Source: Myxacorys almedinensis A
GTDB taxonomy: Bacteria > Cyanobacteriota > Cyanobacteriia > Leptolyngbyales > Leptolyngbyaceae
Assembly: GCF_010091945.1 (NCBI RefSeq)
Contig: NZ_WVIE01000001.1
Coordinates: 124,001 to 188,000 of the forward strand
DNA: 64,000 bases
Direction of reading: 5' to 3'
The notes beneath the pieces are model-generated. The model worked only from the letters and a program-made list of their open reading frames with translations, did no database searches and was not told the DNA's origin. The translations under genes were made by a program, and so were the position numbers. This document shows positions 31,724 to 54,811 of this stretch, piece by piece. Position 1 is the first letter of the stretch, and each line of letters begins with the position of its first letter.

Positions 31724-33628
31724 TCACAACAACTCTTCAGATATTGGCAAATTTACTTGCAGTCCTGTTAATTTTAACGCCTCAAAAGTGCTGTCCATTT
31801 TGGCATCTGGGGGCACGAAAATGATGAATCCATCCCGCCCACGAGTTAGCAGCACACGATAGCTATTTAATCTCAGACGTAGCGGATCGCGGACATTTCT
31901 CTGTCTGGTTGTGCTCACCCAAGCCTGATCTTGCCAGATGAGATCGTTGCCCCAACTCACGATCGGAAAATCTAACTCTAGTCCCTGACAGCTAAATTCT
32001 GTGACAACGCCATTTAATGCACAGCAGGAAAGCAATGAATCTGCTGGATCGGTATACCACGCGCCGACGTTCAGCTTTTGCGTCGAAATATAATCATTAC
32101 GAATGCCGTATTGAGTAAGATTACGAGCACGAGATGATGCAACAAATCCATAACGCTTTTCGGATTGATTGTGATAGCGATCGCGGCTATAGGATTTTGC
32201 AAACTCTAAATCGCGGGTGAGATAGGTATCAAACCCTTCGGCGCGTAGGGTAGGAGCGATCGTTGCAGCTTGATCAAATTCGCCTAAAAGAACATGAGTG
32301 ACCCAATTTTGAACCTGCTTTGCGAGGTGAATTCTCAATGAGGTTGTGAGATTGAGATCATCGTTGGGGTGCAAGCGATCGGGAGGAATCTCGGTAAATA
32401 GCTGCGATGGCTTGGTAGCGCAATGAACATGCCAATTGGATGAAATTGCTTCAAATCCTAGATTCCATTGCTCGATACCATCTTCTTCCCCAACGTGGAT
32501 TTGCTGACCTTCACCAATTAACCCCACCAAAACACACCAATCTGGAATGCGATCGCAGATGCCAATGACGGCACCGGCTGCTGCCGATGAGATGCCATAT
32601 TTTTCAGACATGCGATCGCGATCCCAAGCTCGTTGCGCCTCATCAAACACAATGATGTGTTCTTTGGGAGCCGATTGGCGGCGCATTTCGTATTGAATGT
32701 AAAAATTACGAACCGCTTGCACAAAGGCTTTGCTCTTGAGCGCATACTGTAAGACAGTGAGCAACGGCGCATTTCCGGTTAGAAAAATAGCGCTCCGTTT
32801 CTCATCAGTTTGCCACGGGTTTTGGTAGACAAACTGTAACCCAACTAATGTTTTCCCTGCTCCTGGAACGCCTGTGATCAACACTAGATGCCGTTCTTTA
32901 TTCTGTTCTGCCGTTTTTGCTAACCGATTGAGATAGGCTAGTAGCTGTGGAATGCCTGCACTGTGAGCAGTTTTGAGGGTTGGCAGCGATTGGTGGTGAA
33001 AAATTTGCCGAGCAGCTTGGATTACCGTTGGCAGAGGCGAATACTCTGCATTAATCCAAGCGTTAGCATCGATTTCTGAACAGGCTTGTTTTAGTGAATG
33101 CAAATATGTTGCGATCGTTGCTGGATTAATGACTTCTACTGTGCCATGAGATGTGTTGTGAAAACGGTTCTCTTTTGCCATTCGAGTTGGAATTAGAATT
33201 GCTGTGACAGGATGGTGAGACGACGCGCTATGATATTCTGCTAAATCGCGAGCATAGGCTGCCACTTGGTCGATATCTGCCGATGATGGAGTCGATTTCT
33301 GCTTAAACTCAAATACAAGAATGTGACCCGCGCCAAGGATCACCACATCAGGGCGGCGACCGCCTTCGTTGGGCAGTTCGTACTCGAAAACCAGCACCCA
33401 AGCGGCAGCACCAGGGCGAGTGCTGACCAGATCAAAGAGTTGCGATCGCAAGATTTCTCCGCATTCTACCCAAGCTTGCTGTTGTGTTGCGGTCGACCTC
33501 TGCCGATAAAGAGACTGATAGTTGGCGCTGAGCGTCTCTAGCCAAGCATCGGGCGAGGTGGAGAGGAACCTGGCAATTTTGCCAAGCCAACCGTAGTTGA
33601 TAGCCAGTGGTTGAGAATGTTCAGACAA
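31724..33628 (-). CDS. Nuclease-helicase fusion (PD-(D/E)xK-like plus DUF2075/Schlafen-type ATPase)
   Basis: 634 residues. The N-terminal region has RRPDVVILG (Asp94) and ILVFEFKQK (Glu107-x-Lys109), the spacing of a PD-(D/E)xK nuclease core. A superfamily 1-like ATPase domain follows: Walker A GVPGAGKT (253-260), Walker B HIIVFDEAQRAW (about 324-335), and later VTEFSCQGLELDFPIVSWG and SYRVLLTRGRDGFIIFVPP, which mark DUF2075 (Schlafen group 3-like). Such proteins are often accessory and suspected in phage defence, but no function is proven. HIP1-like sites are present, so there is no strong sign of recent transfer. It stands alone. Confidence 0.85.
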   Translation of the reverse strand: MSEHSQPLAINYGWLGKIARFLSTSPDAWLETLSANYQSLYRQRSTATQQQAWVECGEILRSQLFDLVSTRPGAAAWVLVFEYELPNEGGRRPDVVILGAGHILVFEFKQKSTPSSADIDQVAAYARDLAEYHSASSHHPVTAILIPTRMAKENRFHNTSHGTVEVINPATIATYLHSLKQACSEIDANAWINAEYSPLPTVIQAARQIFHHQSLPTLKTAHSAGIPQLLAYLNRLAKTAEQNKERHLVLITGVPGAGKTLVGLQFVYQNPWQTDEKRSAIFLTGNAPLLTVLQYALKSKAFVQAVRNFYIQYEMRRQSAPKEHIIVFDEAQRAWDRDRMSEKYGISSAAAGAVIGICDRIPDWCVLVGLIGEGQQIHVGEEDGIEQWNLGFEAISSNWHVHCATKPSQLFTEIPPDRLHPNDDLNLTTSLRIHLAKQVQNWVTHVLLGEFDQAATIAPTLRAEGFDTYLTRDLEFAKSYSRDRYHNQSEKRYGFVASSRARNLTQYGIRNDYISTQKLNVGAWYTDPADSLLSCCALNGVVTEFSCQGLELDFPIVSWGNDLIWQDQAWVSTTRQRNVRDPLRLRLNSYRVLLTRGRDGFIIFVPPDAKMDSTFEALKLTGLQVNLPISEELL

Positions 33629-51793: not shown

Positions 51794-52555
51794 ATGACGC
51801 TGATTCCTCTCGCTGATGCGACAAATTTAACCTCTGTCCGGCTGGTAGCCACGGATCTAGATGGCACGTTAACGATCGCAGATAAGTTAACGCCCAAGCT
51901 GCTAAATGCCTTTGAGACGTTGAAGCAGGCTGACATTTCAGTGTTGATTGTGACCGGGCGCTCGGCGGGCTGGGTCAATGCGATCGCGGCATATTTTCCG
52001 GTGACGGGTGCGATCGCAGAAAACGGTGGTTTATTTTATAAAGGCGACTCTCAAAGTTTCATCACCCCCATTTCTGACTTAAAACACCATCGGCTGAAAC
52101 TATTAGAAACCTTTGAATTATTAAAAGCTCAATTTCCCAAGATTCAAGAAACGAGTGACAACCAATTTCGCCTCACCGATTGGACATTTGATATCGAAGG
52201 CATCAGCCCATCAGAACTAGACACGATGACTGAACTCTGCCAAACACAAGGCTGGAGCTTCACCTATAGCACCGTGCAATGTCACATCAAACCGATGGGA
52301 CAGAACAAAGCAGACGGACTATTGCAAGTTTTACATCGGCAGTTTCCAGAAGTTTCGCTAGAGCAAATCATCACCGTTGGCGATAGCCCAAATGATGAAA
52401 CCTTATTTAATAGTCAATATTTCCCGCGTTCTGTTGGAGTCGCGAATTTGTTGAAATATAGCGATCGCTTAACTCATAAACCGACCTACATCACAAATTT
52501 GTCCGAAGGAAACGGCTTTTGCGAACTCGTCCAGCATCTCACCCAATCTCCCTGA
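51794..52555 (+). CDS. HAD-family hydrolase (Cof/SPP-like)
   Basis: 253 residues. HAD motif I VRLVATDLDGTLT, motif II SVLIVTGRSAGW, motif III with Lys in MGQNKADGLLQVL, and motif IV VGDSPNDETLF are all present. An alpha/beta C2 cap lies between (GAIAENGGLFYKGD to about residue 170), typical of the IIB subfamily: Cof phosphatases, sucrose-phosphate and mannosyl-phosphate phosphatases. The substrate is likely a sugar phosphate or nucleotide. It is the last host-like gene before the AT-rich pair; the gap is 97 bp. Confidence 0.87.
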   Translation: MTLIPLADATNLTSVRLVATDLDGTLTIADKLTPKLLNAFETLKQADISVLIVTGRSAGWVNAIAAYFPVTGAIAENGGLFYKGDSQSFITPISDLKHHRLKLLETFELLKAQFPKIQETSDNQFRLTDWTFDIEGISPSELDTMTELCQTQGWSFTYSTVQCHIKPMGQNKADGLLQVLHRQFPEVSLEQIITVGDSPNDETLFNSQYFPRSVGVANLLKYSDRLTHKPTYITNLSEGNGFCELVQHLTQSP

Positions 52556-52652: not shown

Positions 52653-53726
52653 ATGACTAGCCAGCGTCAGGCTTTACTTCAATCCATTGCAACAATAATT
52701 GCTGATTATCGGCAGGGCGAAATTCCTGCTATAAATTCAAACCATGTAGACACATGGGTGACCCAGTTTCACAGGTTTGACTTCGATGAGAATGCTCAAA
52801 TAGTGATCCTTGAGCAGATGGAGCGTATTCTGAAAACTTATTATATTTCCCATAAGAAAGCTCAAGCTTTTATTTATAAAGCGTTGTCTTCTCAAAACTT
52901 ACTTGGTGCAAATCCTGCTGAAACAATACTCAATGTTCAATTCCTACAAATTCAAACAAGAGGTAGTAGCCAAAACGATCTTCTAAACCTCTGTGATTCA
53001 AGTCTTCAAAAAATCTACGGAATTGAAATTGAAGACTGTGGAAGAAACCCAGTTGCGTACATCTATTTTGATGATTGCTTATATTCTGGAAATAGAGTTC
53101 GACGTGACATCACTGCTTGGTTGTCCAGTGCTGTTTCCAGAACGACTTTGCATATAATATTTTTTGGGCATCACACTGAAGGATTCAATTATTCAAAAAG
53201 AACAATTGAGCAGAAAGCACAATCGCGAAATATTTCTGTGCATTTTTGGAAATGGCATGAATTTCATAATTCTCGCTGGAATCCATCGAGATTTGATTGC
53301 TTCTGGGCACGTGAAATTTCTGGCGATGAATTTGTAGATCAATATATTCAAGTAGTGAATGAGCGTCGTCAAAACCTGAATCGATCTCTACCGCCTTTGT
53401 TCCGTCCTAATAATATGCCAACTCAGGGCAGCATTTTTTCCTCACCTGTTTCCCGTCAGGTCATTGAGGACGCATTCCTAAAAGCTGGTGCATATATTGT
53501 TTCATTACCTAGAAGTCCAAATACCAGTATGCGACCGCTCGGATATGACTATTTAGAGACTTTAGGTTTTGGAGCAATTTTGATAACATATCGTAATATT
53601 GCAAATAACTGTCCGTTGGCATTATGGTGGGGTGATCCCGGTAAAGCCTATCCATTGAATGCTTGGTATCCGCTTTTCCCTCGGACAGTTAACATTACAC
53701 CTATTCCTGAAGGGGAGGAAGTCTGA
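52653..53726 (+). CDS. Phosphoribosyltransferase-like protein (PRTase-CE-type), first gene of accessory module
   Basis: 357 residues. Residues 136-146 read YIYFDDCLYSG, which fits the acidic PRPP-binding loop of type I phosphoribosyltransferases (two hydrophobic strands, DD, then a T/S-G turn), followed by NRVRRDITAW. The N-terminal 130 residues are helical. The stretch RTTLHIIFFGHHTEGF could be the next core strand. The C-terminal 100 residues end with LWWGDPGKAYPLNAWYPLFP. This combination resembles the PRTase-like enzymes reported in bacterial conflict systems (PRTase-CE). Catalysis is not proven. The DNA is visibly AT-rich and has no HIP1 site. Two bases separate its stop from the NADAR gene. 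Confidence 0.7.
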   Translation: MTSQRQALLQSIATIIADYRQGEIPAINSNHVDTWVTQFHRFDFDENAQIVILEQMERILKTYYISHKKAQAFIYKALSSQNLLGANPAETILNVQFLQIQTRGSSQNDLLNLCDSSLQKIYGIEIEDCGRNPVAYIYFDDCLYSGNRVRRDITAWLSSAVSRTTLHIIFFGHHTEGFNYSKRTIEQKAQSRNISVHFWKWHEFHNSRWNPSRFDCFWAREISGDEFVDQYIQVVNERRQNLNRSLPPLFRPNNMPTQGSIFSSPVSRQVIEDAFLKAGAYIVSLPRSPNTSMRPLGYDYLETLGFGAILITYRNIANNCPLALWWGDPGKAYPLNAWYPLFPRTVNITPIPEGEEV

Positions 53727-53728
53727 AA

Positions 53729-54706
53729 ATGGTAGCAGTGGTCAAGCTTCCTGAGTCAAGAACCTACAATAGGCAGGAATGTATTACCTTCCGCAAAACT
53801 GCTGAGAGATTTGGCGGTTTATCTAACATGGCGGGGGGGTATATCTTGAATATTAACGGTGTTAAGATTTTGACCTCTGAAGCGCTGTATCAAGCTTGCC
53901 GTTTTCCCCACATGCCTGAAGTCCAGCGTCTAATTATTGCTGAACGAAGTCCGATGACGGCAAAGATGAAAAGCAAGCCTTACCGCGATAATTCTCGTTC
54001 CGATTGGGATATAGTCCGAACAAAGATTATGCGCTGGTGTTTACAAGTAAAACTGATTCAGAATTGGGATAAATTTAGCAAGCTTTTACTTGAAACAGGC
54101 GATTTACCAATTGTTGAGGATTCCAGAAAAGATGATTTCTGGGGTGCTAAACCAGAAGATGAAGAGTTTCTTACTGGTGCTAATGTGCTTGGACGTTTAT
54201 TGATGCAAGTAAGAGAACAAATAGCAAGTGGAAAACTCACTTCTGAAACTATTGTACAACCTCTTCCAATTCAAGATTTTTTATTATATGGACAAGACAT
54301 TAGTCCAATTGTAGCAAGTGGTGAATATTATCCAGGCAGCTATATGCGATCGCTGGATCTTATTAAATCAGGCAGTCAGCCTAGTTCAGACGTAGATCTA
54401 CTTAGTATCTCTAAGCATGAGTTAGAACGCGATGAAGAGGGTAGATCAAACGAAAATTTAGAAAAAGAATTAGTTGAGATTGCTGAGTTTAAATTTGATA
54501 AGTATGACAGCTTACAATTCGTCCTTTTACCCATAGTAGAGAAACTACAGGAATCTGAACATACCGATAAAGAGTTAGCTAAACTTTTCACAACCAATCT
54601 GAAGCAGATGCGCGATTGGCTGAAGCGGGCTGTAGAGCTTGGTAAAGTCAGAAAACTTTCCAAACCAGTTCGGTACGTTGCAGAATCTCAATTACCTTTA
54701 ATTTAG
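53729..54706 (+). CDS. NADAR (YbiA-like) protein with C-terminal winged-helix-like region
   Basis: 325 residues, ATG preceded by GGGGAGGAAG. Residues 15-165 match the NADAR/DUF1768 fold: FGGLSNMAGGY (28-38), ILTSEALYQACRFP (47-60), AERSPMTAKM, SDWDIVRTKIMRWCL, LLLETGDLPIVEDS, DDFWGA (135-140) and TGANVLGRLLMQVR (149-162). YbiA-type NADARs hydrolyse N-glycosidic bonds, and some reverse ADP-ribosylation of guanine in DarT-type systems. After a linker (about 170-255), residues 258-318 look like a winged helix (YDSLQFVLLPIVEK, DKELAKLFTTNLKQM, LKRAVELGKVRKLSKPVRY), as at the end of some DprA proteins. Its stop is followed by an attC-like palindrome. Confidence 0.8.
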   Translation: MVAVVKLPESRTYNRQECITFRKTAERFGGLSNMAGGYILNINGVKILTSEALYQACRFPHMPEVQRLIIAERSPMTAKMKSKPYRDNSRSDWDIVRTKIMRWCLQVKLIQNWDKFSKLLLETGDLPIVEDSRKDDFWGAKPEDEEFLTGANVLGRLLMQVREQIASGKLTSETIVQPLPIQDFLLYGQDISPIVASGEYYPGSYMRSLDLIKSGSQPSSDVDLLSISKHELERDEEGRSNENLEKELVEIAEFKFDKYDSLQFVLLPIVEKLQESEHTDKELAKLFTTNLKQMRDWLKRAVELGKVRKLSKPVRYVAESQLPLI

Positions 54707-54730: not shown

Positions 54731-54811
54731 GTTAACAATGTGCTGGAGCGGCAGGCACAGTTTTTGCGCTTCGTTTTAGCTATATCTGTCGCCGCTCATC
54801 TTCACCGTTAC
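54731..54811. repeat. Imperfect palindrome resembling an integron attC site
   Basis: It begins GTTAACAATGTGCTGGAGCGGC and ends GCCGCTCATCTTCACCGTTA, so the outer TAAC/GTTA and the inner GAGCGGC/GCCGCTC pair with a mispaired stretch between; an irregular centre of about 38 bp separates the arms. That layout, directly after a stop codon, is what an integron cassette end looks like. The R' box GTTACTT does not fit GTTRRRY, so it may be only a decayed or related repeat. Confidence 0.4.

Follow-up and report, generated by a model that had tools for sequence, protein, structure and literature searches.

A DS-32 anti-phage pair in a cyanobacterium couples a phosphoribosyltransferase-fold protein to a NADAR–winged-helix protein and has relatives embedded in restriction–modification and Hma systems

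NADAR proteins strip ADP-ribose off guanine in DNA and RNA (PMC11543638, PMC11833690), and in DarT1–NADAR (DarTG1) and YarT–YbiA such an eraser stands beside a putative nucleobase-modifying partner. Phosphoribosyltransferase (PRTase) proteins are also found in immune systems: type III-A retrons pair a winged helix with a PRTase that has been described as the effector (PMC12548924). In the prr locus, PrrC, carried in the EcoprrI hsd operon, is silenced by the linked EcoprrI and freed by the T4 anti-restriction peptide Stp (PMC2610378). The DS systems of the 2026 DefensePredictor screen are those that lowered the plating of phages on E. coli MG1655 or made their plaques smaller, and the main text mentions NADAR and PRTase proteins just in passing (PMC13092281). 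Two NCBIfam equivalog models, NF053875 (DS32_1_antiphage) and NF053876 (DS32_2_antiphage), bear the name DS-32, from which we take them to describe the DS-32 of that screen. We found no publication on the mechanism of DS-32 and no report of what follows the NADAR domain in its second protein.

The locus described here lies in a 64-kb stretch of cyanobacterial DNA, called the window throughout. Its two genes are on one strand and 2 bp apart, exactly as the initial annotation had placed them (Table 1). Gene 1 scores 389.4 bits against NF053875 (cut-off 250), and gene 2 scores 291.6 bits against NF053876 over residues 11–191 (cut-off 240). The pair is like DS-32 in passing both cut-offs, in gene order and in the 2-bp gap, and the cassette is almost certainly a DS-32 anti-phage system; the defence module suggested from the DNA alone has thereby acquired a family, which NCBI calls anti-phage in the wake of a validated screen (PMC13092281). 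The window copy is a member of that known family, and phage protection by this copy is predicted from its sequence. Whereas the curated DS32_2 model ends after the NADAR domain (181 positions), the cyanobacterial protein adds a linker and a winged helix of about 80 residues.

Table 1. Coordinates of the DS-32 pair in the window, of its insertion segment and of related solitary NADARs
Feature	Position	Strand	Basis
Horizontally variable segment	52544..54806	.	blastn against the same-genus genome G001 (locus L174) and L174 ORFs
DS-32A (gene 1), type I PRTase-fold protein (PRTase-CE), 357 aa	52653..53726	+	PF24390, NF053875, model, fold matches
QxxGxSQ motif, residues 101–107, nearly invariant	52953..52973	+	95 dereplicated homologues
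PRPP-binding loop YFDDCLYSG, residues 138–146	53064..53090	+	conservation in homologues
C-terminal motif RNxxNNxPLxxWWG...WYPLxxR, residues 314–344	53592..53684	+	conservation
DS-32B (gene 2), NADAR + C-terminal winged helix, 325 aa	53729..54706	+	PF08719, NF053876, model
NADAR domain, residues 21–165	53789..54223	+	alignment to 8bau and 2b3w
C-terminal winged helix-turn-helix (wHTH), residues ~242–320	54452..54688	+	model pLDDT, Foldseek wHTH matches
DS-32-like solitary NADARs	L201 3992–4624; L216 and L217 3998–4564; L224 4043–4597		viral contigs

The gene pair is the lowest-GC point in the 64 kb, with 39.6% GC compared with 50.3% ± 3.0 in segments of the same size elsewhere (z = −3.6) and with GC3 values of 0.31 (gene 1) and 0.33 (gene 2), in keeping with its earlier description as AT-rich. 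The accompanying claim about HIP1 held in part: the octamer at 54346 is the only one in the 2,054-bp pair, but the depletion against the 3.85 predicted (from 120 sites in 64 kb) is weak and not significant alone (P(≤1) = 0.10), and it was dropped as proof of transfer. Horizontal acquisition, which had also been proposed, is borne out by comparison with G001, one other genome of the genus, in which the segment holding the pair is replaced by other cargo. In the blastn alignment, DNA similarity ends at 52543 and restarts at 54807, and between the matching flanks G001 encodes a 352-aa protein without a Pfam match and a trypsin-like protease (L174 1374–3317). The right flank, composed of an 83-aa gene and an MltA-like gene, is kept across the class. 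The insertion point is a variable site that carries alternative cargo, and it may be a cargo hotspot. Placement in a defence island, also raised by the initial annotation, was not borne out; when 41 proteins encoded near the module in the window were scanned with PADLOC, the only matches were to PDC-S41 and MzaA-like proteins, and no clear island emerged. The protein matching the candidate PDC-S41 (31727–33628, − strand; E = 3e-137) is encoded 20 kb from the module.

Gene 1 matches Pfam PRTase-CE (PF24390, E = 1e-54); its sequence alone found no match in the PDB. An AlphaFold model built with 70 homologues reached a pLDDT of 94.4, and Foldseek searches with this model gave matches that were weak (best E = 4e-3) but nearly all PRTases, the fold matches comprising UPRT, OPRT, PyrR and APRT. 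In VIA-align, the model superposed on uracil PRTase 1o5o with Z = 9.5 (rmsd 2.7, 123 aligned) and on PyrR and OPRT with Z = 8–9. The model and the fold searches thus give a PRTase core for the protein that had been called PRTase-like, and the PRPP-type loop that had been noticed in it as DDCLYSG is intact, with the type I succession of hydrophobic strand, DD, small residue and [ST]G. In an alignment of 95 dereplicated PRTases, D140, D141 and G146 of this loop are invariant in 93 of 93 gap-free rows, and GxSQ (104–107) and RNxxNN...WYPLxxR are all but invariant; the PRPP-loop and WYPL stretches doubled as homologue search patterns, so that their invariance is partly built in. The position of QxxGxSQ would fit the pyrophosphate-binding loop of PRTases, and the C-terminal motif is likely to be the base or hood region. 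On the model, gene 1 adopts a type I PRTase fold with an intact PRPP loop, and it is a candidate for PRPP binding and phosphoribose transfer.

Gene 2 has the fold and the conserved catalytic glutamates of the NADAR superfamily. It matches Pfam NADAR (PF08719, E = 6e-26), and its AlphaFold model (pLDDT 82) matches YbiA (2b3w, E = 3e-8) and an ADP-ribose-bound NADAR (8bau, E = 8e-7), so that Pfam, alignment and fold agree with the NADAR (YbiA) assignment made earlier for the first 165 residues. In the 8bau alignment, E51 (53879–53881) and E130 (54116–54118) correspond to E43 and E125 of the P. nicotianae NADAR, which serve in ribose contact and catalysis (PMC11543638). K79 is the equivalent of K75/C7-K115, the C7 residue being required for DarT1 neutralisation in cells, and W93, R97, D135 and W138 are equivalents of pyrophosphate-contact residues (PMC11543638). 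Five of these residues (E51, K79, W93, E130 and W138), none of which was used as a search pattern, are invariant in 87/87 DS-32 NADARs. The pocket lysine (K50/K95) differs: R58 (53900–53902) replaces K50 of the P. nicotianae protein and is Arg in 86 of the 87, a conservative change at a position for which the superfamily has no strict requirement and which Schuller et al. describe as only largely conserved (PMC11543638). Whether the NADAR pocket is complete had been left as a check; judged from the alignments, the DS-32 NADAR pocket is complete but tuned. The window pair resembles DarTG1 and YarT–YbiA in setting an eraser with matching glutamates beside a putative nucleobase-modifying partner. 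It differs in that the partner has a PRTase fold and is not an ADP-ribosyltransferase, in the change of the catalytic lysine to arginine and in a YbiA-type Glu where the DarT1-linked NADAR has Asp. DarTG1 is characterized by a DarT-type ADP-ribosyltransferase, a place that is taken here by PRTase-CE.

The C-terminal region that had appeared winged-helix-like forms a separate wHTH in the model, joined to the NADAR domain by a linker (213–241) of low model confidence and giving weak Foldseek matches to many wHTH proteins. The gene 2 C terminus also matches that of PADLOC PsyrA (E = 1.6e-8, model positions 288–395 of 398). Membership of PsyrTA was rejected: the match covers only the C-terminal part of PsyrA, and the same model matches 283 of 291 cyanobacterial genomes, the near-universal family behind those other matches being presumably DprA. 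What gene 2 and PsyrA have in common is confined to a C-terminal winged helix.

A genome-wide scan with PRTase patterns, together with a viral-contig scan, yielded 114 loci, some of which are copies present in both collections (about 95 distinct PRTases). The conserved pairing for which a survey had been proposed is found in all but one of them: at 113 loci, the PRTase gene is directly followed, at most a few tens of bases on, by a NADAR gene in the same orientation. With the PRTase fold present and the pairing conserved, neither outcome that the initial annotation had named as a refutation came about, and its interpretation is supported in essentials. At the sole exception (L020 9938–12759, Gloeomargaritales), the PRTase frame is broken, a gene on the opposite strand intervenes and the NADAR–wHTH gene is largely kept. 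DS-32 is sporadic, exceeding the cut-offs in 5 of 386 cyanobacteria and 1 of 38 relatives, and it occurs in roughly 1% of complete E. coli genomes, where one examined copy lies within a lambdoid prophage. The PRTase gene is interrupted and the NADAR gene intact in two near-identical E. coli genomes only, too few to show which gene goes first. Annotated phage records contained no match to the gene 1 sequence.

What appears new relative to the named DS-32 is the winged-helix architecture and, above all, the restriction–modification (R–M) and Hma fusions of the family. The cyanobacterial DS-32B extension, in the window and a dozen related loci, is a winged helix; a helix-hairpin-helix (HhH) follows the NADAR domain at two loci, and many loci have no extension. 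About half of the family is without a DNA-recognition module, including the enterobacterial DS-32B of about 205 aa, and the E. coli version is stand-alone. At 33 loci the extension comprises some 500 residues homologous to HsdS (E = 8e-94 for L023 against the PADLOC type I specificity subunit). HsdM is encoded upstream at 32 of these and HsdR downstream at 31, the exceptions lying at contig ends, whereas only one locus outside this group matches HsdM or HsdR. L023 (7701–16172), where start and stop codons overlap, is laid out as hsdM, PRTase, NADAR-HsdS and hsdR, and so are L043, L062, L053 and about 29 other loci. Further genes lie between hsdM and the PRTase gene in L040 (GmrSD-like) and in L050 (DUF4062 and a Schlafen/AlbA-type gene). 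Like prr, these 33 relatives hold an extra, probably toxic gene within a type I R–M operon; they differ in that the addition is a PRTase/NADAR pair with the NADAR covalently fused to HsdS, and the window copy differs in standing alone.

At seven further loci, the NADAR is fused to a DNA methylase (DUF1156) that matches HmaB, in L054 with E = 5e-127; where the contig reaches, the fusion is mostly flanked by HmaA-like and HmaC-like genes. Compared with the plain HmaABC set, these loci have gained a PRTase gene and a NADAR domain. These Hma (helicase–methylase–ATPase) systems with a fusion and a PRTase gene are L052, L054, L069, L070, L093, L026 and L056; in L027, the Hma and PRTase/NADAR genes occur together unfused. 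On a tree of 92 PRTases built by a quick method, extension type requires 18 changes, compared with a shuffled mean of 36.5, and on well-supported branches the HmaB type must have been gained or lost at least five times and the HsdS type at least three times. The pair has thus been joined time and again to DNA-methylating defence systems that are unrelated to one another. In the open-access literature, where absence is no proof of novelty, no paper joining NADAR, phosphoribosyltransferase and type I restriction was found, and the titles and abstracts of papers co-mentioning NADAR and HsdS report no such fusions.

The PRTase also has relatives in other immune systems. DS-32A aligned by hhalign with the type III-A retron PRTase-CE at 96.7% (E = 4e-10); the retron protein (PADLOC PRTase_III-A) is homologous to DS-32A, PF24390 being found in both, and the retron and the window pair each couple a PRTase with a winged helix. 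By contrast, the window pair has a NADAR and no reverse transcriptase ORF adjoining it, and neither of its proteins matches the retron wHTH family PF24409. A locus resembling a type III-A retron, in which a reverse transcriptase-like ORF comes after the gene for a PRTase-CE/wHTH protein, occurs in a genome from the same phylum group (L180 1498–3836), and a cyanobacterial AAA/STAND-type ATPase ends in a PRTase-CE domain (L007 22–2346). Together with the retron PRTase, these proteins suggest that PRTase-CE is an effector domain shared by several immune systems.

A scan with NADAR patterns identified four DS-32-like NADARs (three distinct sequences) on viral contigs of 177–485 kb, with no PRTase within 4 kb. 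They score 182–232 bits against DS32_2, under its cut-off of 240. By analogy with DarTG, against which a phage antitoxin mimic is known (PMC11481870), these solitary NADARs fit counter-defence and are possible phage antidotes to DS-32.

We give an even chance to a mechanism in which the PRTase is a toxic effector, the NADAR is its eraser and the pair is tethered by the C-terminal domain, either to DNA or to a guarded system. The folds, active-site motifs, pairing, horizontal insertion, fusions and operon contexts are observed; the donor, the acceptor, which gene is toxic and the trigger we infer. Released DS-32A would use PRPP or a related donor to place a phosphoribosyl or related group on a nucleobase, the acceptor being most plausibly an exocyclic amine on guanine, whether the base belongs to DNA, to RNA or to a nucleotide; this modification would stop phage growth. 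The NADAR of DS-32B would serve as both eraser and antitoxin, hydrolysing that N-glycosidic bond and probably restraining the PRTase. Its C-terminal module would anchor the pair, through a winged helix on nucleic acid in the window copy and elsewhere through a subunit, for specificity or methylation, of a type I R–M or Hma system. A pair linked in the latter way would stand guard over the methylation system and be triggered once phage proteins had put that system out of action, a model suggested by the eraser on an R–M DNA-recognition subunit, which recalls PrrC and EcoprrI (PMC2610378).

A PRTase toxin with a NADAR eraser is favoured because the bond that a NADAR cleaves is of the sort that a PRTase forms. 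YbiA cleaves the N-glycosidic bond of riboflavin intermediates, in which phosphoribose sits on an exocyclic amine. That the PRTase is almost never without a NADAR, while viral NADARs stand alone like antitoxin mimics, argues for the PRTase as the toxin. The mechanism is also favoured by the invariance of the PRPP loop and of the NADAR glutamates and K79, by homology to the retron effector and the ATPase-fused PRTase-CE, and by the embedding with HsdS/HsdM/HsdR and HmaA/B/C. Against it stand the gene order, since a toxin gene in first place is not the commonest toxin–antitoxin arrangement, and the combination of R58 with a fused HsdS, which could mean another substrate. To our knowledge, a PRTase that modifies a base within a polymer has no experimental precedent.

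Both enzyme types naturally use small molecules, and the pair could instead be a signal system, in which infection prompts the PRTase to produce a ribosylated nucleotide or base analogue that is soluble, the NADAR is the off-switch (or vice versa) and macromolecules stay unmodified. The enterobacterial DS-32B, lacking a DNA-targeting extension, would suit such a role, and Iyer et al. propose that phage NADARs mainly target small ADP-ribose derivatives (PMC9503650). However, the pair has no conserved neighbour that would encode a separate receptor or effector, and the repeated fusions are to DNA-recognition modules, and we regard this explanation as unlikely.

PRTase folds can be non-catalytic regulators, and PyrR is among the best fold matches, which counts against the PRTase as effector and would allow the roles to be reversed: a PyrR-type PRTase would be a sensor or antitoxin binding PRPP or nucleotides, and the NADAR would be the effector, guided by the C-terminal DNA module and removing bases from DNA or from nucleotides. 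It is indeed the NADAR, not the PRTase, that is fused to HsdS, HmaB, HhH and wHTH. This reversal is nevertheless rather improbable, given the complete PRPP loop in all sampled members, the effector-type PRTase-CE of retrons and its fusion to an ATPase in L007, the antitoxin or damage-control function of NADARs tested to date (PMC11543638, PMC11125620) and the presence on viral contigs of lone NADARs rather than lone PRTases.

We assign little probability to an extra DNA-modification layer, in which the PRTase and the NADAR, instead of being toxin and antitoxin, would jointly alter or tag bases wherever HsdS, HmaB or the wHTH directs them, as part of self/non-self marking; the pair does sit between modification and restriction genes with its NADAR fused to a specificity or methylase subunit, but the systems retain their own N6-adenine methylases, about half of the family lacks a DNA-recognition module and the E. 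coli version stands alone. Ordinary metabolism, a nucleotide salvage enzyme beside a riboflavin-intermediate N-glycosidase, is very improbable indeed: gene 2 falls just short of the TIGR02464 cut-off (72.6 against 73.7), but the DS-32 models fit far better, the distribution is sporadic, the AT-rich insert is absent from G001 and the E. coli copy lies in a prophage.

The alignments, the catalytic-residue map and the modular architectures supply concrete mutants and partners for tests of DS-32. The NADAR-HsdS and NADAR-HmaB fusions tie ribosyl chemistry to classical restriction–modification and suggest that a second, concealed layer of defence is present in some type I R–M operons. Should the chemistry prove to be PRPP-dependent base modification, the PRTase would represent a new toxin class directed at nucleic acids or nucleotides. 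Tentatively, the family may be a portable guard cassette, comprising a PRPP-dependent nucleobase-ribosylating toxin and its eraser, that has been bolted repeatedly onto DNA-methylating immune systems through fusion of the eraser to a DNA-recognition subunit; phage attack on that system would free the toxin, and large phages would reply with solitary erasers. Near the solitary NADAR of the viral contig L216 lie ORFs that we take to be thymidylate synthase- and DHFR-like.
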